64,000 nt of DNA. Source: Winogradskyella wandonensis (GTDB taxonomy: Bacteria > Bacteroidota > Bacteroidia > Flavobacteriales > Flavobacteriaceae). How positions within the stretch are numbered: position 1 is the first letter of the stretch; each line of letters starts with the position of its first letter. The position numbers and the translations under genes are program-made. Positions 1-61,474 of this stretch are shown here, piece by piece. The notes under the pieces were generated by a model. That model was given only the letters and a program-made list of their open reading frames with translations, had not been told where the DNA came from and ran no database searches. The stretch is taken from contig NZ_SMGI01000003.1 in NCBI RefSeq assembly GCF_004346845.1, positions 208,216 to 272,215 of the forward strand, given 5' to 3'.

Positions 1-3000
1 CGCATCTACGCCATTGCCATTATCTGCTATAACATCTACTGATACAGTAGCTCCTGGGGTGTTTGCTAAACTAGCATCATCCTGAGCTACTGGTGGAATA
101 GGTAACTCGATAAGTATAGTAGCTACTGCGGTATCACAAATTCTTTGATTAGGAGCATTTAAGCAAATCTGATAGGTTACATTATATGTACCTGCTGGAG
201 TTCCTGGTGGAATATCAATTGTTCCATCGGTGTTAATTGAAACACCTGTCAAACCACCATTATTAGAAATCGTTATGGTGCCATCATCTATTAAGGCGTC
301 CGTTGCAGGTGTTGTGCCATCTGCATCATCATTTGTGAAAACTGTTGCTGTTGTTCCGCCTGCTGTTGCATCTATTGGTGATGCACTAAAATCATCATTG
401 TTTGCTGTAATCGTTGGTGTAGCAGCAACGACTATTGATACTTCTGCCGTGTCACAAATACTACTGTCTGCTTCTAAACAAATCGTATACTCAACTGTAT
501 ATGAACCTGGTGTTGAACCTGCTGGAATATCAATTGTTCCATCGGTGTTAATTGAAACACCTGTCAAACCACCATTGTTAGAAATCGTTATGGTGCTATC
601 ATCTATTAAGGCGTCCGTTGCAGGTGTTGTGCCATCTGCATCATCATTTGTGAAAACTGTTGCTGTTGTTCCGCCTGCTGTTGCATCTATTGGTGATGCA
701 CTAAAATCATCATTGTTTGCTGTAATCGTTGGCACTACACAAGCCAATGCATCCGTATCATCGGTAACCGCAGGAGCATTACCAGGGTAAGTTGCAGCTG
801 CATCTGCCACAGTACCATCTGCATTAATTCCGCCATTAGCTATTGTTAATGGCTCTGCATTAGTGTTTCCTGGATTAAAAACACCACCATCACCTCCATC
901 GGCATTAGCATCATTATAGGCTTCGTTTGCATCTGAACAGCCGTCTCCGTCTGAATCTAAATCAAAATAGTCAAAAATACCATCACCGTCAGTGTCGATA
1001 GGATTAGGTTGTATTTGCATACAAGTAGTTGCAGGATAGCCACCTACTGGTGGTGCAGTAGCAAAACAATAATCTCTAGAACTTAAAGATCCTGCAAATG
1101 TTAAGTTAAAGCTGGAGACTTGACCATAATACCAAGTAAATAAATCTTGAGAATTGTTATTACTTACAAACGTTGTAGTTCCATTTCCATTATCAGTTAT
1201 TGATGGACTGCCTTGCTGAAAAGCGTATCCTATTAATAAAGATTGTTCTAATATAACACCTTCGTTCAAATCAAAGTCATCCATGTTCAACCCAAAATTT
1301 ATGGTCACTGGATTTGATGTATTCGCTTCAAAAAATTCAAAAGAAAAGATATCATTTGGATCGGCATCATTTATGGCGAAACCATTATCACCAGAACAAT
1401 CAGCATTTCCGGGAGGATTAAATGAATATCCTGTAGCATTAACAGAAGTTATAATCATATCTATTAAGGTACCATCTGGTGTAGAACCAATATCCTCAAA
1501 TAACATTGTTCCGCCTAAAGCTCCATTATTATTTACAGTTGCATTGGCGGCTATAAAATCATATTCAGGAAATACTCCTGTATCGTCGAAGACAGGACAC
1601 GCAAAGACTTGTCCTTCATCGATGTCTGTGATGCCATCATTATCATCATCTAAATCGCAAACATTATTTATACCATCTGCATCTGGGTCGTTTGCTGTTA
1701 CAGTTCCAGGAATTGCCCCATCCGTGCAAGGGTCTGGCGGTCCTGTTACTGTTAAAATACCAGATCTAACCTCATTGATACAAACATTTGCATCGTGAGT
1801 TATTTCTAAAATATAGGTTGTACCATCTAATGCAGCAGAGGTTATAATATCTAAGGACTGCGTATCTGTACCAGTATAAACGGCATCGTCACTTAGTGCA
1901 TTTCCTGGTGCTATGCTACCTATATACCATTGGTAATTAAGACCGGAGTCTGCATTACCTGGCGTACCATATATTGGTGTACCTGATGAATAGCTCGTTG
2001 CATTATCTGCTGATGTTGTGACAGTAAACGTAGCTGTATCTCCTTCTACCACAGTTTGATTACCAGGCTCTGAAGGTGCAATAGTTACCTGAGTAGCTAA
2101 TGTTTCATTTCCTGTAGTGCCATTGTAACCACCCGTTGCATTGGTTCCTGTGACCTGACCATCTGTATTATAACTATAAGGCGCTTCTCCTAAGATACCA
2201 TCATTATCTGAATCACTTCCACCAGATTCTACTACATCGTTACATCCATCATTATCACTGTCTGAGTCCAAGTAATCGAAGATTCCGTCACCATCAGTAT
2301 CTATGGAACAAAAAGTTGGCTGAATGTACCTTATCGATGATGCTGCTATATGCCTGTATCTTATTTCAATTCGGCTTACTTTATCAGGAAAAAAGAAAAC
2401 AATCGAACCTACTGGATCACTAGACGGATTATTTCCATCAACATTTCCATTAATTGATAAATTTTCTTGAAATTCATTTCCAGTTTGAATAATTCGACTA
2501 CCAACACTTGAGATACCTTCGACCGTCAAATCATAAAGCACATTATTTTCGTCATAAACATTTATTTCATAATTCTCATTTTCATCAAAATCAGTGATTT
2601 TAAAACTTAATTTTCCGACTGGATTTGTAAATGTTGTAATTAAAGTACCTTCGAAATTACCACCACCACCAGTCCTTTGCAACCTTATTGCACTTCCATT
2701 TGAGCCTGCTGTATAACCATAAATCTGTCCTGTTCCTGAAACGGAAGTGATATTATATCTTACATTAGTTCCATTTAAAGGAAACTCATCGCCATCATTA
2801 ACAGGAAAACCAGTTCCACTAACACCAATTGTACCGGCAATATTTGTATTATTATTACATCCTTCTTGATTATCTAAAATACCGTCGTTATCATTGTCTA
2901 AATCTGTTGCATCAGGAACACCATCCATATCAGAATCAGGTACAAATACGGTATAAGAAAGTCCCTCTAGTACTATACCGAATGGATCTGTCGAGCCATT

Positions 3001-3717
3001 TGTTGTATCTTATGCAATATCATCGTAAGTAAATGTTATTTGAGAAAAAGGCGAAGTGCTAGAAATAGTTAGTTGTCCGCCTGCATCTGCATTGAAAGAA
3101 TTATCATTTGGCGCATAGATTGTTCCTACAGGAATAGTCGCAGCAGTAAAAGATCCAGAAGCTGGACTCTCTACGGATGTGGTTAATTTTGTGAAATGTT
3201 GATCATTTACACCTTCTGGACCTTCATTTACATATGTTAAACTTATTGTTCCAGAATTAACAGAAATATTATTTATACCCTCTAAACCTCTATCAAAAGA
3301 AGAGACATCATTATTATTAAAAAATCCGAAATCTAAAATTACTTCAGAAACACTTACAGGAAAACCAGAAGTTGCGTCTACGAATGAGATTGTGTAATTA
3401 ACATCACCATTTACCACTCCTGAAGCAGGTCCGTTATGACCGAGGCGATAGCCAACACCTAAAGCATCCGTTCCTTGTCCATTGGCCGAGGTTAACACCA
3501 CCTCAACATTATCATCTGGGGCATCAGCGGAATTAAAAACTGCAGGTGAACTCGTTCCTGCACCGAGTTGTGATGCTGTTATTGTCTGTCCAAAACTAAC
3601 AAACGCCATTAAAACAATTAATAGCGTCGCTAGGTAATACTGTTTAAAACCAAGTAAGTCTGTAATAAAATTACTGAAATTTGTTTTCAATACGGAAGGA
3701 ATGGTAGTTTTTCCCAT
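1..3717 (-). pseudogene. Large secreted cell-surface adhesin, interrupted by one in-frame stop; 3' end beyond window
   Basis: The gene starts at 3717 with a signal peptide (residues about 20-43, ending SFGQ) and runs to a TAA at 3012-3010. The same frame then stays open from 3009 to position 1, about 1000 codons, and the protein sense continues (..TYDDIA, stop, DTTNGSTDPFG..). Downstream are thrombospondin type-3 calcium-binding repeats (for example DSDMDGVPDATDLDNDNDG, DTDGDGIFDYLDSDSDNDG and DPDADGINNVCDLDDDNDG) and Ig/cadherin-like repeats of 105 residues near the left edge. This architecture is that of Bacteroidota type IX-secreted surface proteins; the sorting domain would lie outside the window. 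A single CAA-to-TAA change would explain the break. Alternatives are a sequencing error, readthrough, or a truncated 235-residue secreted product. I saw no start with a signal peptide after the stop. Confidence 0.75.
211..732. repeat. Tandem 315-bp repeat inside the adhesin gene
   Basis: Positions 211-417 and 526-732 match over 207 bp with only two mismatches that I could see, a period of 315 bp or exactly 105 codons. They encode two copies of an Ig/cadherin-like domain whose strands include DGTIDIPAGSTPGSYTVEYT and ATVFTNDDADGTTPATDALI. The intervening part of each unit is more diverged. Near-identity at the DNA level points to recent duplication or gene conversion. Confidence 0.85.
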
Positions 3718-56658: not shown

Positions 56659-56742
56659 AATGTTTTTGATTTTAAAAGTTAGATACCTTAAAATTAGTTA
56701 AAATCTTCTGAAATAGATTTGTTAGTTCTATACTTTTTATTT

Positions 56743-56761
56743 TACTTTGTATTTCAAAGTA
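56743..56761. promoter_or_regulatory. Operator palindrome, copy 1
   Basis: TACTTTG-TATTT-CAAAGTA has perfect 7-bp arms and ends 8 bases before the start at 56770. Its sequence is the reverse complement of copy 2 at 57981-57999 (centre TATTT against AAATA), and ACTTTTA follows both. It overlaps the expected -7 and leader region, so a bound protein would block transcription. The likely ligand is the winged-helix regulator encoded at 57657. Confidence 0.75.
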
Positions 56762-56769
56762 CTTTTATT

Positions 56770-57381
56770 ATGAGCAACGAAGACTATCTAAAAGACATTA
56801 GTGAGATTAAAAATCTTATGAATAAATCATCCCGATTTATTTCACTCAGCGGTTTATCAGGAATATTAGCTGGTATTTATGCCTTAATAGGAGCAGCAGC
56901 AGCATATTGGCTAGTTGAAACTTACAGCAATGGTACATTGTATATTTTTCACGGCAAAGTATTTTGGTTATGTATGGCCATTTTAGCAGCCGTAGCCTTT
57001 TTCAGCATAGTCACAGGAATTATCTTAACAACAAGAAAGGCAAAAAAGAACAACGAAAAAATCTGGGATGGTTCCTCAAAACGGTTGCTTATAAATTTTT
57101 TAGTGCCTTTAGTTGTTGGCGGAATTTATTGCCTCATAATATTAAGCCAAGGAAGGTATGGACAAACAGCCGGATTAATGCTTATCTTTTATGGGTTGGC
57201 TTTAGTTAGCGCTTCTAAATATAGCATAGGAGATATAAGGTATCTTGGACATGTCCAACTAATTTTAGGTTTAATCGCAAGTTATTATCCTGGTTATGGA
57301 TTTTGGCTTTGGGTTTTAGGCTTTGGAATAATGCACATTATTTACGGTACTTGGATGTATTTTAAATATGATAGACGATGA
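56770..57381 (+). CDS. Membrane protein, first gene of the CreD module
   Basis: A 203-aa protein with about six membrane segments after a short polar N-terminus (MSNEDYLKDISEIKNLMNKS). The segments include LSGILAGIYALIGAAAAYWL, FWLCMAILAAVAFFSIVTGI and LLINFLVPLVVGGIYCLII. I do not recognise an enzymatic motif. A start at 56719 would put the operator inside the gene, so 56770 is preferred. The stop shares ATGA with the next start, so the two genes are translationally coupled. Confidence 0.75.
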   Translation: MSNEDYLKDISEIKNLMNKSSRFISLSGLSGILAGIYALIGAAAAYWLVETYSNGTLYIFHGKVFWLCMAILAAVAFFSIVTGIILTTRKAKKNNEKIWDGSSKRLLINFLVPLVVGGIYCLIILSQGRYGQTAGLMLIFYGLALVSASKYSIGDIRYLGHVQLILGLIASYYPGYGFWLWVLGFGIMHIIYGTWMYFKYDRR

Positions 57382-57599
57382 ATTCGAAATTGAAGATGAA
57401 ACTGAAAAAAAAATTATGGATTAGCTTTGCTGTTCTATTTTTTATTTTATCAAACTACACTGCTTTTTATAGAGCGAAAAGACAAGCCTACTTAGAGTGC
57501 ATAGATTTTAATGTTCTGTCAATTATTGATAATACAATTACTTTTGGGATATGCTTTACTTTATCTTTAATTGGTGTTTTGATTTTAAAACGTAAATAA
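57378..57599 (+). CDS. Small two-segment membrane protein
   Basis: A 73-aa protein with a basic N-terminus (MNSKLKMKLKKKL) and two membrane segments (about 14-31 and 47-69). No family recognised. ATGA overlap with the upstream gene; a repeat tract follows. Confidence 0.65.
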   Translation: MNSKLKMKLKKKLWISFAVLFFILSNYTAFYRAKRQAYLECIDFNVLSIIDNTITFGICFTLSLIGVLILKRK

Positions 57600-57609
57600 A
57601 AAAATTGAG

Positions 57610-57651
57610 CTGCCAACTGCTAACTGCTAACTGCTAACTGCTAACTGCTAA
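57610..57651 (+). repeat. Six tandem heptamers before the regulator start
   Basis: One CTGCCAA and five CTGCTAA units, perfectly in register, cover 42 bp and end five bases before the ATG at 57657. They replace the usual A-rich leader of the regulator. Copy-number change would alter the spacing between the upstream gene and the regulator start. Confidence 0.95.
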
Positions 57652-57656
57652 CTAAA

Positions 57657-57950
57657 ATGAGCATAATCACTAACATAAACAAACTATTTGACCATCGCAT
57701 TCGACTGGGTATAATGTCAGTGCTTATGGTGAATGAGTATGCCGATTTTAATACACTTAAAGACTTGCTTGGCGCCACAGACGGTAACCTTGCAAGTCAT
57801 ACGAAAGCCCTCGAGAAAGCGGAATATATTTTAATAGAAAAACAATTTATTGGCAAAAAGCCAAATACGCGCTATTCTGCTACAAAACTAGGAAAAGCCG
57901 AATTTAAAAAACATATTAATGCACTGGAAAAACTAATAAAAAAGACTTAG
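57657..57950 (+). CDS. Winged-helix transcriptional regulator (HTH_34-like)
   Basis: A 97-aa single-domain DNA-binding protein of the ArsR/PadR-like winged-helix type. The helices LFDHRIRLGIMSVLMVNEYA and FNTLKDLLGATDGNLASHTK (recognition helix) are followed by a wing IEKQFIGKKPNTRYSATKLG and a dimerisation helix. No metal-binding cysteines are present. Short relatives next to CreD are common in Bacteroidota. Two copies of the TACTTTG-N5-CAAAGTA palindrome flank the gene's operon, so it probably represses its own group and creD. Confidence 0.9.
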   Translation: MSIITNINKLFDHRIRLGIMSVLMVNEYADFNTLKDLLGATDGNLASHTKALEKAEYILIEKQFIGKKPNTRYSATKLGKAEFKKHINALEKLIKKT

Positions 57951-57980
57951 TAAAAACCGAAACCTATTTTTTTACGTATT

Positions 57981-57999
57981 TACTTTGAAATACAAAGTA
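57981..57999. promoter_or_regulatory. Operator palindrome, copy 2, upstream of creD
   Basis: TACTTTG-AAATA-CAAAGTA has perfect 7-bp arms, 26 bases before the creD start, followed by CTTTTAAT as in copy 1. It is in the gap between the regulator and creD. Confidence 0.75.
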
Positions 58000-58025
58000 C
58001 TTTTAATATTTAAATTTTTAATCAT

Positions 58026-59417
58026 ATGGAACAATCGAACACACCTCCGCAAGAACCAACAACACAAAACAAATTCACTAATTGGTTAAAAACGTCAATC
58101 ACCGCTCGTATGCTTATGGTTGGATTTTTAGTCATTATACTTCTGATACCTCTTTCATACATCAACAGCTTAATTAGAGAACGTTCCTACAGACAGTCTG
58201 ATGTCGTAAGAGAAATAAACGGAAAATGGGGAAACAACGTTTTAGTTTATGGCCCTATGCTCAAAATCCCCTATAAAACTTATACAGAGACCAAAACTTA
58301 TAACGAAACCACAAAGACTTATCTCACAGAAACTAAAACTTTTATTAAACACGCGTATATATTTCCCGAAAAACTTGACGCAGACGTTAATGTAAACTCT
58401 AAAACATTAAATCGAGGAAACTTTGAATCTGCTGTATTTACAACAAAAATGGATTTTTCAGGTCATTTTATTCCTACAGATTTAAGTTCTAAAGACATAA
58501 AAGAAGAGGATATCCTGTGGGAAAAAGCTACAGTTATCATAAAAACATCAAATCTTAAAGGTATTAAGAGCGAAATGGTATTGAAGTTAAATGACGCTTC
58601 ATACAGCTTTCAAACTAATTTCAATTCAGATAACTCAAATAAACAATCAAATTTAGATGTTTTAGAATCTGGATTTATAAATGCAAAACAACTTAGTGAT
58701 ACTAATGACGATGCTTTTAGTATTAGTATGGCCTTTAACGGAAGTGAACAAATAGACATCATTCCCATAGGAAAAACAACAACTATGTCCATGAGCTCTA
58801 ATTGGGCTGACCCAAGTTTTGTTGGCAATTACTTGCCTAATGACGAGACAAAAAAAATCACAAAAGATGGTTTTAAAGCCGATTGGAAAGTGCTTCAAAT
58901 CAATCGCGCTTTTTCTCAGCAACACTTAAATTCTATTCCAAACCTTAATCGTTTTGCTTTCGGCACAAAGTTTATGGTTATGGTTGATGAATACCAAAAG
59001 AGTGAACGCTCTGCCAAATATGGTTTTCTTGTTATTGGGCTCACATTTCTAATTTTCTTTCTCATCCAAACCATGAGCAAGATTCATATTCATCCTTTTC
59101 AATATTTAATGATTGGATTGGCTTTAACCATGTTCTACACATTATTAGTTTCCATTTCCGAGCATAGTAATTTCTTAAAAGCCTACTTAGTTGCAGGAGT
59201 TTCTGTAGTTGCATTAATCACTTTTTACTCAAAATCAATTTTAAAAAGTTTTAAGTTTTCAAGTTTTATAGGCATTTCTTTAGTGGCCTTATATGCGTTT
59301 ATATACGTAATAATTCAACTTGAAAATTATGCCCTATTGGTAGGAAGCGTCGGCCTTTTCTTAATTCTAGCAACAGTAATGTTTGTATCAAGAAAAATAG
59401 ATTGGCACAACGATTAA
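58026..59417 (+). CDS. creD: Cell envelope integrity protein CreD
   Basis: A 463-aa inner-membrane protein. An N-terminal membrane helix (SITARMLMVGFLVIILLIPL) is followed by a periplasmic domain (about 55-325, with YGPMLKIPYKTYTETKTY) and five or six C-terminal membrane segments starting at AKYGFLVIGLTFLIFFLIQT. In proteobacteria creD is under CreBC control and tolerates envelope stress and colicins. Here it follows a winged-helix regulator instead. The hairpin after it suggests an end of transcription. Confidence 0.93.
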   Translation: MEQSNTPPQEPTTQNKFTNWLKTSITARMLMVGFLVIILLIPLSYINSLIRERSYRQSDVVREINGKWGNNVLVYGPMLKIPYKTYTETKTYNETTKTYLTETKTFIKHAYIFPEKLDADVNVNSKTLNRGNFESAVFTTKMDFSGHFIPTDLSSKDIKEEDILWEKATVIIKTSNLKGIKSEMVLKLNDASYSFQTNFNSDNSNKQSNLDVLESGFINAKQLSDTNDDAFSISMAFNGSEQIDIIPIGKTTTMSMSSNWADPSFVGNYLPNDETKKITKDGFKADWKVLQINRAFSQQHLNSIPNLNRFAFGTKFMVMVDEYQKSERSAKYGFLVIGLTFLIFFLIQTMSKIHIHPFQYLMIGLALTMFYTLLVSISEHSNFLKAYLVAGVSVVALITFYSKSILKSFKFSSFIGISLVALYAFIYVIIQLENYALLVGSVGLFLILATVMFVSRKIDWHND

Positions 59418-59486: not shown

Positions 59487-59798
59487 ATGAAAAACAACAT
59501 CAATATTACCGGAAGACTAATTGCTTTACTCAGTTTTGTTATAGGCACAATGCTTTTAGCCTTTTATCTATATTTTGGAGAATCTACTGTACAAATACAT
59601 GTCGCTATTTTATTTATAGTGATAGCCTTTATTCTCAACACTATACTATTTGCGGTAATTCTTGGCGCTACACTACTTAATAAGACTAACAGAATTGAAG
59701 GCCTAAAAACCTTAGTCATTATGCTGTGCAATATTCCTATATCAATTCTATATTTCTATATGGTCATTACATTTCCTGGACATAAACTACTATTATGA
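59487..59798 (+). CDS. Small three-segment membrane protein
   Basis: A 103-aa protein with three hydrophobic segments (about 9-27, 36-60 and 74-95). The sequence NKTNRIEGLKTLVIMLCNIP lies between segments 2 and 3. No family recognised. Overlaps the following gene by 4 bp (ATGA), so the two are coupled. Confidence 0.65.
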   Translation: MKNNINITGRLIALLSFVIGTMLLAFYLYFGESTVQIHVAILFIVIAFILNTILFAVILGATLLNKTNRIEGLKTLVIMLCNIPISILYFYMVITFPGHKLLL

Positions 59799-60814
59799 AG
59801 CTGAAATTAAACTTACATTATCTCACATTTGCAATTACTCTATTTATAATCGAGGCTTGCATTGCTATCTTTCTTAAATCTGGATTTATAAGGCACACGT
59901 TTGGGGACTATCTCGTTGTTATCTTATTATATTGCGGATTAAGAGGAATCAGTGATTTAGGTGTTTGGCGGAGTGCTATCTTAGTCCTTATTGTTTCTTT
60001 TATAATTGAGTTTCTTCAACTCACTTCAATCTTAGCGGTACTTAATTTAGATAATAACAGCCTCGCAAAGTTAGTCTTTGGTACAACTTTTCAGTTTACA
60101 GATTTGATAGCTTACGCTTTAGGCATCGTAACTGTTTTGATTTTTGAACCTAAGCTTCGAGAAAAGATAAATTTTCGCCGTTTCTTCAAGATAAAATATA
60201 TAATTAGTCTTGGAGTTTTATTTGGACTTCTATGTCTTTCTATTCCTAATTACATCGTTGCAAAAACAGCTGAAAATAAAACGTTTTACAATATTAAAGA
60301 TATTCCAAAAAATAAAGTCGGACTCGTTTTAGGCGCAAACAAATACACATCTAACGGAAATATTAGCTTATACTATTTATACAGAGTTGATGCAACAGCT
60401 AAACTATTTCAAGCCAATAAAATTGAATACGTTTTAGTGAGTGGCGATAACAGTAGAAAGAATTACAACGAACCTAGTATGTTTAAAGAAGACCTAGTTA
60501 AGAGAGGAATTCCTGAAAATAAAATTTTCTTAGACTATGCAGGTTTTAGAACCTTAGATTCTGTCGTAAGAGCAAAGGAGATTTTTGGTCAACATAGTAT
60601 TACCATAATCTCACAACGTTTCCATTGCCAACGTGCCATATTTCTGGCAAATGCACATGATATAAAAGCTGTCGGTTTTAATGCCAAACACTATAAGAGA
60701 GCTCAATTTTTCAACAAACCATCAAGAGAATACTTGGCAAGAGCAAAAGCCGTTTTAGATGTCCTCACAGACAAGAAACCCAAATATTTAGGAAACCCAA
60801 TTGCAATACGATAA
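59795..60814 (+). CDS. DUF2809-SanA/YdcF (DUF218) fusion protein
   Basis: A 339-aa membrane protein in two parts. Residues 1-120 (LFIIEACIAIFLKSGFIRHT, FGDYLVVILLYCGLR, LAKLVFGTTFQFTDLIAYAL) match DUF2809, a small four-segment membrane family. After a further membrane segment (133-152), residues about 170-339 match SanA/DUF218: VGLVLGANKYTSNGNISLYY, LVSGDNSRKNYNEPSMF, FLDYAGFRTLDSVVRA and IISQRFHCQRAIFLA. SanA in enterics affects envelope permeability and vancomycin resistance. The fusion joins two envelope functions. Confidence 0.85.
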   Translation: MKLKLNLHYLTFAITLFIIEACIAIFLKSGFIRHTFGDYLVVILLYCGLRGISDLGVWRSAILVLIVSFIIEFLQLTSILAVLNLDNNSLAKLVFGTTFQFTDLIAYALGIVTVLIFEPKLREKINFRRFFKIKYIISLGVLFGLLCLSIPNYIVAKTAENKTFYNIKDIPKNKVGLVLGANKYTSNGNISLYYLYRVDATAKLFQANKIEYVLVSGDNSRKNYNEPSMFKEDLVKRGIPENKIFLDYAGFRTLDSVVRAKEIFGQHSITIISQRFHCQRAIFLANAHDIKAVGFNAKHYKRAQFFNKPSREYLARAKAVLDVLTDKKPKYLGNPIAIR

Positions 60815-60817
60815 CTC

Positions 60818-61474
60818 ATGAAACAGCTATTATTCAGAAAATTCGAAACTATATCTCTAGTATGTCCAGCAATTATAATGAGTAGCTTTTTACTTATACT
60901 TCGTGTTAAACTAAACAAGTCATTTTTCTACTTATTCCTAGTTTGGAATATTGTTCTAGCCATAGTTCCTTATGCTATAACTATGTATTTAAGCTCGGTA
61001 AAACTAAGTAGATTAAAACTAATATTATGGTTTTGTGTTTGGGTAGTATTTCTTCCCAACGCACCATACATCATAACAGATTTACTGCATTTACGAGTAA
61101 GCAATTCGCATATGCTATGGTTAGATATTTTAGTGATATTATCCTTTGCTGGTACTGGCCTATTGCTTTTCTTTTTATCTCTAAATGACATGAGACTATT
61201 ACTAAACAGTCACTTTAAAAAGCTACAAACAAAGTACTTCATGACTGCAATTGTATTTCTTTGTGCCTTCGGAGTTTATTTAGGAAGATATCTACGCTAC
61301 AACTCTTGGGAAATACTAAGTAAACCACAACGTTTATTTTCGGATATCTTAGAAATGATTACAAATCCTTTTAATAACTCTGAAGTTTGGTTATTTACAT
61401 TTGGATTTGGAGCTTTTTTGTATGTCGGGTTGAAAATATTTAATAAACTATCAAAAAAAGACGTCTTAGCATAA
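60818..61474 (+). CDS. DUF1361 membrane protein
   Basis: A 218-aa protein with six membrane segments and the DUF1361 signatures VFLPNAPYIITDLLHLR and FGVYLGRYLRYNSWEI. The function is unknown. It begins 3 bp after the fusion gene, so it is in the same unit. Confidence 0.88.
   Translation: MKQLLFRKFETISLVCPAIIMSSFLLILRVKLNKSFFYLFLVWNIVLAIVPYAITMYLSSVKLSRLKLILWFCVWVVFLPNAPYIITDLLHLRVSNSHMLWLDILVILSFAGTGLLLFFLSLNDMRLLLNSHFKKLQTKYFMTAIVFLCAFGVYLGRYLRYNSWEILSKPQRLFSDILEMITNPFNNSEVWLFTFGFGAFLYVGLKIFNKLSKKDVLA

Follow-up and report, generated by a model that had tools for sequence, protein, structure and literature searches.

What do two matching palindromes control when they stand on either side of a small regulator gene, the second of them directly before creD, and does the site they represent belong to creD or to the regulator? 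The window (by which we mean the whole 64,000-nucleotide stretch of Winogradskyella wandonensis DNA analysed) contains TACTTTGTATTTCAAAGTA at 56743-56761 and TACTTTGAAATACAAAGTA at 57981-57999; each fits TACTTTG-N5-CAAAGTA exactly and is the reverse complement of the other. A preliminary description had read these palindromes as operators of a local circuit controlling two membrane-protein units, and the palindromes themselves proved to be just as it said: a scan of the host genome (2,958,316 b, 99.8% complete) found 2 exact copies of the 19-mer, no copy with 1 mismatch beyond the exact pair, and 18 copies with 2 mismatches, no excess over the 23 matches of a reversed control pattern at up to 2 mismatches; this genome-wide search, set beforehand as a test that could overturn the idea, yielded no surplus copies. 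The ACTTTTA said to follow both copies is also present, its conserved portion being the CTTT immediately 3′ of the 19-mer. The 23-mer TACTTTGN5CAAAGTACTTT has 2 exact matches within the window, and 5 at up to 3 mismatches against 0.19 expected; two of those 5 are the same sites read on the reverse strand and one is at 56943. The twin palindromes are real and far beyond chance. As a separate feature, a 12-bp stretch, TACTTTGTATTT, is imperfectly doubled at 56731-56754, just 5′ of and inside site 1.

The two putative operators, both TACTTTG-N5-CAAAGTA-CTTT, frame a compact module in which they and all genes lie on the forward strand. Site 1 (56743-56765) is 5′ of the first gene, A_mem, and site 2 (57981-58003) is 5′ of creD; the regulator gene does lie between them, at 57657-57950, and creD comes next after the second site. 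A_mem (56770-57381; 203 aa, no Pfam family) is predicted to have an N-terminal helix and six long hydrophobic helices, and its start is best read as the ATG at 56770, the listed TTG start at 56719 falling upstream of site 1. Its structural model has a mean pLDDT of 89.8, a fold search of the PDB returned no match with E under 0.5, and a weak DUF308 match was seen in 17 of 56 relatives (best E 2.6e-5). A 73-aa ORF at 57378-57599, hydrophobic by eye and without a family, is inconstant among relatives. Between it and the regulator gene lies a heptamer repeat, CTGCTAA, at 57610-57653 (6.3 copies, 97% matches), which ends just before the regulator ATG; changes in its copy number could shift the spacing to that start codon. 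Downstream of site 2, creD (58026-59417) encodes a full-length family member (PF06123, E 2.8e-144, 481.6 bits, positions 2-428 of 428; NF008712 equivalog, 475 bits against a cut-off of 275) and is followed by a 103-aa ORF (59487-59798, hydrophobic by eye, no family), a single DUF2809-DUF218 ORF (59795-60814; SanA-like, its 175 bits to the NCBIfam SanA model being below the 363-bit cut-off), and a DUF1361 protein (60818-61474). All three are probably in the creD operon, the 103-aa ORF on grounds of spacing. The fusion of DUF2809 and DUF218 at 59795-60814 is matched by two separate ORFs in many of the relatives compared.

The regulator is a 97-aa winged-helix protein of the HTH_34 family (PF13601, E 1.2e-29), with 102.8 bits against a cut-off of 27 over profile positions 1-80 of 80. 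Its predicted structure (pLDDT 93.2) is a winged helix with a two-strand wing; the best PDB match is 1ub9 (PH1061) by both sequence (E 8.8e-8) and fold (TM 0.87), so that it has fold and family in common with PH1061-like regulators, and its next fold neighbors are PadR proteins, such as the PadR-family Rv3488, and MarR proteins, some of these neighbors having been solved with DNA. The copies in W. haliclonae and in an uncultured Winogradskyella are each 98% identical to it. T41, D42, and G43 do not vary across 35 diverse members, in which N44, L45, A46, and H48 are at least 90% conserved; the recognition helix would span approximately residues 42-54. We were unable to find any paper on HTH_34 or PF13601 in a literature search that mostly lay outside subscription journals, and so cannot point to an operator or regulon already described for this family.

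Comparison of sequences among relatives brought out the conservation of the site, its link to the regulator, the exchange of cargo behind it, and targets unlinked to it. To begin with the link, 397 Flavobacteriaceae genomes were each searched for the regulator, the exact motif, and CreD, a regulator match with an E of at most 3.4e-30 being scored as presence (189 genomes) and 19 weaker matches (E 1e-7 to 1e-15) as absence. The exact motif occurs in 161 of 189 genomes with the regulator and in 7 of 208 without it (Fisher p 6e-71, kinship ignored and the genomes not independent); the reversed control pattern is present in 19 of the 397. Six of the 28 regulator genomes that lack an exact site were inspected (G116, G118, G119, G217, G243, G318), and all have two sites at 1-2 mismatches. 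Divided by creD, the motif is found in 92 of 109 genomes with both regulator and creD, 69 of 80 with regulator only, 1 of 8 with creD only, and 6 of 200 with neither. We conclude that the motif follows the regulator rather than creD, which makes the regulator the best candidate binder.

These counts bear directly on a reading in which the palindrome is an operator kept for dedicated control of CreD, with the regulator a bystander. Such a site does stand before creD in the window, as it does in the creD-bearing cassette loci that were compared; the reading is nonetheless barely credible, because 69 of the 80 creD-less regulator genomes retain the motif and because the sole copy among the eight creD-only genomes (in L135) is not within 5 kb of creD. 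Nor do the creD-only loci (L135 to L142), whose CreD proteins are 30-48% identical to that of the window, have the motif in the sequence surrounding creD when as many as 2 mismatches are allowed. The expectation that the palindrome would recur at orthologous creD loci thus holds where the regulator is present and fails where it is absent.

How far the arrangement extends was followed in 180 loci, 80 of them from GTDB genome contigs (the best 80 of 464 relatives) and 100 from further genome stretches, many of which were picked for creD or motif status. A regulator match is present in 167, of which 160 remain after removal of 7 with identical regulator DNA; the 13 loci without a regulator, eight creD-only and five motif-only stretches, were included on purpose. 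A_mem lies upstream of the regulator in 149 of the 160 non-redundant loci, and site 1 (up to 2 mismatches in 14 positions) is present in 147 of these 149. For site 2, 123 of the 160 loci have a copy (up to 2 mismatches) no more than 150 nt from the stop codon of the regulator, and 20 additional loci have one farther downstream, to 1.9 kb (up to 1 mismatch). Both sites are present in 138 of 160: i) in 79 of 80 near relatives; ii) in every locus of two further Flavobacteriaceae sets (13 of 13 and 12 of 12); iii) in 25 of 40 loci that lie at the margin of the family or beyond it, as far as phylum level; and iv) in 9 of 15 extra loci. Among the 40 loci of other families, site 2 is absent or weak in 11, and A_mem or site 1 went undetected in 7. 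As a control, none of 1408 random 160-bp segments of the same loci, placed at random positions rather than at promoters, comes within 2 mismatches. The same arrangement recurs in distantly related bacteria of the phylum, and the local two-unit circuit with the regulator between its sites is strongly supported by this comparison.

Alignment of all sites reveals a longer directional element, TACTTTG-N5-CAAAGTA-CTTT, with CTTT toward the gene at both sites and conserved at each position in 97-100% of the 147 site-1 loci and 98-99% of the 143 site-2 loci; variation in the half-sites is mainly in the outermost base. That variation speaks to whether the palindromes could be RNA elements (a hairpin, attenuator, or weak terminator) rather than protein sites, as might be imagined from a transcript that could fold into a 7-bp stem closed by a 5-nt loop, with CUUU after it. 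Counted over both sites, the outer pair is broken in 77 cases (and 1 more with an N), kept by a one-sided change in 11, and restored by compensatory change in 4, so the outermost changes are mostly uncompensated and favor a DNA site over an RNA hairpin; the four inner T-A/C-G pairs are near-invariant and do not covary; transcription is expected to begin at site 1, whose hairpin would then not be transcribed in full; and the motif co-occurs with a DNA-binding protein. We consider the RNA reading very unlikely.

The sites also have a telling position relative to candidate promoters. The left half of site 1 is overlapped by a candidate -7 box, TTACTTTG, at 56742-56749 (TAnnTTTG with one mismatch), and a T stands at -1 of site 1 in 95% of 147 loci. 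In Flavobacterium psychrophilum, the -7 box has been mapped at -12 to -5 and reads TAnnTTTG (PMC9723704). Since the left half-site makes up most of this box, transcription would be expected to start in the right half; the ATG of A_mem follows 8 nt after the 19-mer of site 1 in the window. Farther upstream, a TTTG at 56718-56721, with 20 nt between it and the candidate -7 box, is a candidate -33 element. Among the 147 loci, 101 have a TTG whose first base is at -25, -24, or -23 relative to site 1, as against about 5 at other offsets, and in those 101 it stands 19-21 nt 5′ of T[T/A]ACTTTG. By sequence, then, an operator-like site lies at the putative promoter of the regulator's own operon, and its overlap with a Bacteroidetes-type promoter suggests autorepression.

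The resemblance of the left half-site to the -7 box raises the question of whether TACTTTG is simply the core promoter motif of the phylum, doubled by chance. We think this extremely unlikely: the full palindrome is exact only twice in the genome, the exact motif is found in just 7 of 208 genomes without the regulator, and hardly any variation is seen in the inverted right half or in CTTT.

Site 2 is built differently upstream. A TTG at the -33 position is found in only 1 of 143 loci, the candidate promoter there being without a -33 box, and a run of T (57967-57973 in the window, forward strand) stands directly 5′ of the site. At least 6 of 7 positions from -14 to -8 are T in 128 of 143 site-2 loci, compared with 1 of 147 at site 1. 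We considered the run as the tail of a terminator of the regulator gene and rejected this, since 123 loci show no general hairpin before it (mean z -0.34, median -1.7 kcal/mol); a hairpin does form in individual loci, L144 among them. The scarcity of the -33 TTG at site 2 (against 101 of 147 at site 1) and the conserved T-run of its own would suit a regulator that acts as activator or in a dual manner, recruiting polymerase at site 2 and repressing at site 1. We regard this as unlikely, although it merits more weight than the readings above, because both sites are alike in orientation, in the side that carries CTTT, and in overlap with the would-be -7 box, all of which fits blocking better, and because MarR/PadR-like proteins mostly act as repressors. 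Autorepression combined with repression of the cargo operon by the HTH_34 protein is the most likely reading.

We therefore favor, as quite probable, a model in which the palindromes serve as operators for the HTH_34 regulator whose gene lies between them. The regulator would bind the 23-bp directional site TACTTTG-N5-CAAAGTA-CTTT as a dimer; at site 1 it would block the promoter of the A_mem-regulator operon, repressing its own synthesis; at site 2 it would block the cargo operon, here creD-103aa-DUF2809/DUF218-DUF1361; and a membrane-derived signal, perhaps sensed by the co-encoded A_mem, would free the operators. What we infer is that this protein binds the sites, and as a dimer, that it represses and does not activate, that such a signal exists, and that A_mem has the part proposed. 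Being paired with the regulator, A_mem may be a sensor or an anchor. No single frame among 208 loci (L035 to L242) carries both A_mem and regulator domains, so this role draws no support from fusions; a 348-aa frame in L211 begins with Arg-rich readthrough, which we take to be out of frame, and was rejected as an A_mem-regulator fusion. The A_mem-regulator pair with its operators would constitute a conserved control cassette of the phylum, with CreD as one output and DUF4153, an unrelated membrane protein, as the other main one.

This exchange of outputs is the point at which the preliminary description has to be amended: the local circuit of two units stands, and the motif tracks the regulator, creD being only one of its cargoes. 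Within 5.5 kb after the regulator, CreD is found in 53, DUF4153 in 68, and both in 0 of the 160 loci. Of the 397 genomes, 58 encode the DUF4153 type whose frames measure 456-566 aa, and every one of them has the regulator; among regulator genomes this type is present in 2 of 109 with creD and in 56 of 80 without (p 4e-26, kinship ignored). A longer type (approximately 600 aa), found in two creD genomes (G032, G116), was excluded from this count. DUF4153 is within 4 kb of the regulator in 46 of the 50 genomes with a listed regulator position, the four exceptions being G156 and G337 (both also with creD), G130, and G284. Distant homology of CreD and DUF4153 was considered and rejected (hhalign probability 0.2%), and DUF4153 is not a Cache domain, as far as the available part of PMC4822843 goes.

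On a tree of the cassette proteins, the cargo slot switches at least 30 times over 120 loci, 25 of them within 101 Flavobacteriaceae loci, a count inflated by tree error because this is a quick tree of short proteins. The cassette proteins of W. pacifica (DUF4153, L063) and W. psychrotolerans RS-3 (CreD, L074) are 98% identical, and in this and four other pairs DNA homology spans the regulator and operator and stops 4-15 nt after the 19-mer; the alignment is unbroken through the operator in two pairs (L052/L069, L047/L067) and the operator forms a separate block in three. Homology resumes downstream in four of the five pairs, in L063/L074 at the DUF2809-like gene, and does not resume in L052/L069 within the compared stretch. 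As judged by sequence, cargo is exchanged with breakpoints just past the operator, and CreD is one cargo of several.

The same site also occurs away from the cassette. The 22-bp core ACTTTGN5CAAAGTACTTT (up to 1 mismatch) was found in 60 of 60 regulator genomes, picked across the phylum after the motif had already been seen in most of them, with 140 matches as against 12 for the control pattern; 33 of the 140 sit away from the main cassette. A genome-wide search revealed no such unlinked site in the genome of the window. We examined 24 of the 33, in 23 loci, together with 2 that flank a paralogous cassette. In 14 of the 23 loci, one of the first three downstream genes belongs to a cassette cargo family (six-helix protein, 414-aa membrane protein, DUF4153, Coq4-like, mpaB/Lcp-like, DUF2809, or three-helix protein), and in 9 none does; it was L235 that prompted the choice of the six-helix family, and the three-helix profile dates from after the reading of these loci, the count being 13 of 23 without that profile. 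Cargo-family matches make up 19 of 42 downstream ORFs, whereas among the remaining ORFs of those fragments they make up 2 of 151. The position of these 14 unlinked sites before cargo families suggests a dispersed regulon, mostly of membrane proteins. In L254, the mpaB/Lcp-like gene (2192-2956, reverse strand) is oriented away from the unlinked operator at 3001, and some sites may thus serve divergent genes. The proteins downstream in L231 and L258 are alike by eye, and both are presumably DoxX-like; in L237 (4437-4991, reverse strand; genome G259), an unlinked full operator lies immediately 5′ of a 185-aa protein that we assume to be exosortase-like.

The paralogous cassette (L263 2956-3918, reverse strand) is in G397, which encodes a second regulator, 43% identical to that of the window. 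This regulator has DGNLSVSLKKLEE in place of DGNLASHLKSLEK in its recognition helix, and is surrounded by its own pair of variant sites. These two are identical, and depart from the main site in the spacer and, within the right half, in the inner base. As a single case, this cassette hints at regulator-operator specificity, and is a natural test of it.

The type of circuit is familiar. PadR-type repressors of Listeria, in the available part of PMC6624303, are likewise small winged-helix proteins that control transmembrane-protein genes; the present regulator differs in family (HTH_34), phylum, and cargo, and no exchange of CreD and DUF4153 is noted in that part of the source. As far as the literature searched goes, the operator, the regulon, and the exchange of cargo seem not to have been described before: among the papers listed, again mostly from outside subscription journals, none dealt with the motif or with control of CreD in Bacteroidetes. 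The cre-tag of the CreBC regulon is TTCAC-N6-TTCAC; none is found at creD here, and the window has 2 one-mismatch matches (at 13.9 and 33.0 kb) where 4.66 would be expected by chance. Neither CreB nor CreC is among the nine proteins scanned around the twin sites, nor, in 6 of the 8 regulator-less creD loci, among the matches listed for nine neighbors; in L137, one of the regulator-less loci, a NarL-like response regulator and a kinase-like protein are near creD. CreD, the putative target here, is also a target in the proteobacterial CreBC-CreD system, where its loss impairs envelope integrity in Stenotrophomonas maltophilia (PMC4689548, as available in part), but CreBC is a two-component system, whereas the candidate controller here is a one-component winged helix with a different site and an exchangeable CreD. 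Control of CreD by a one-component regulator instead of CreBC is suggested; that this circuit replaces CreBC, as first proposed, goes beyond the evidence.

The analysis provides an operator with its promoter arrangement and a list of targets, probably those of an undescribed circuit for the control of membrane proteins in this phylum, and the 23-bp mark finds members of one probable regulon across the whole of it. Many genes in these loci have no assigned function: A_mem, DUF4153, DUF1361, DUF2809, the approximately 190-aa six-helix protein, and the 414-aa membrane protein. More tentatively, and with somewhat less than even confidence, the circuit could be an ancient envelope-homeostasis regulon of the phylum, composed of an HTH_34 repressor and an A_mem sensor, in which CreD and DUF4153 are equivalent, non-homologous outputs behind a fixed operator. 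If so, DUF4153 would do here what CreD does elsewhere, and is predicted to be able to substitute for CreD; and the 23-bp operator would flag further membrane-maintenance genes that have no assigned function.
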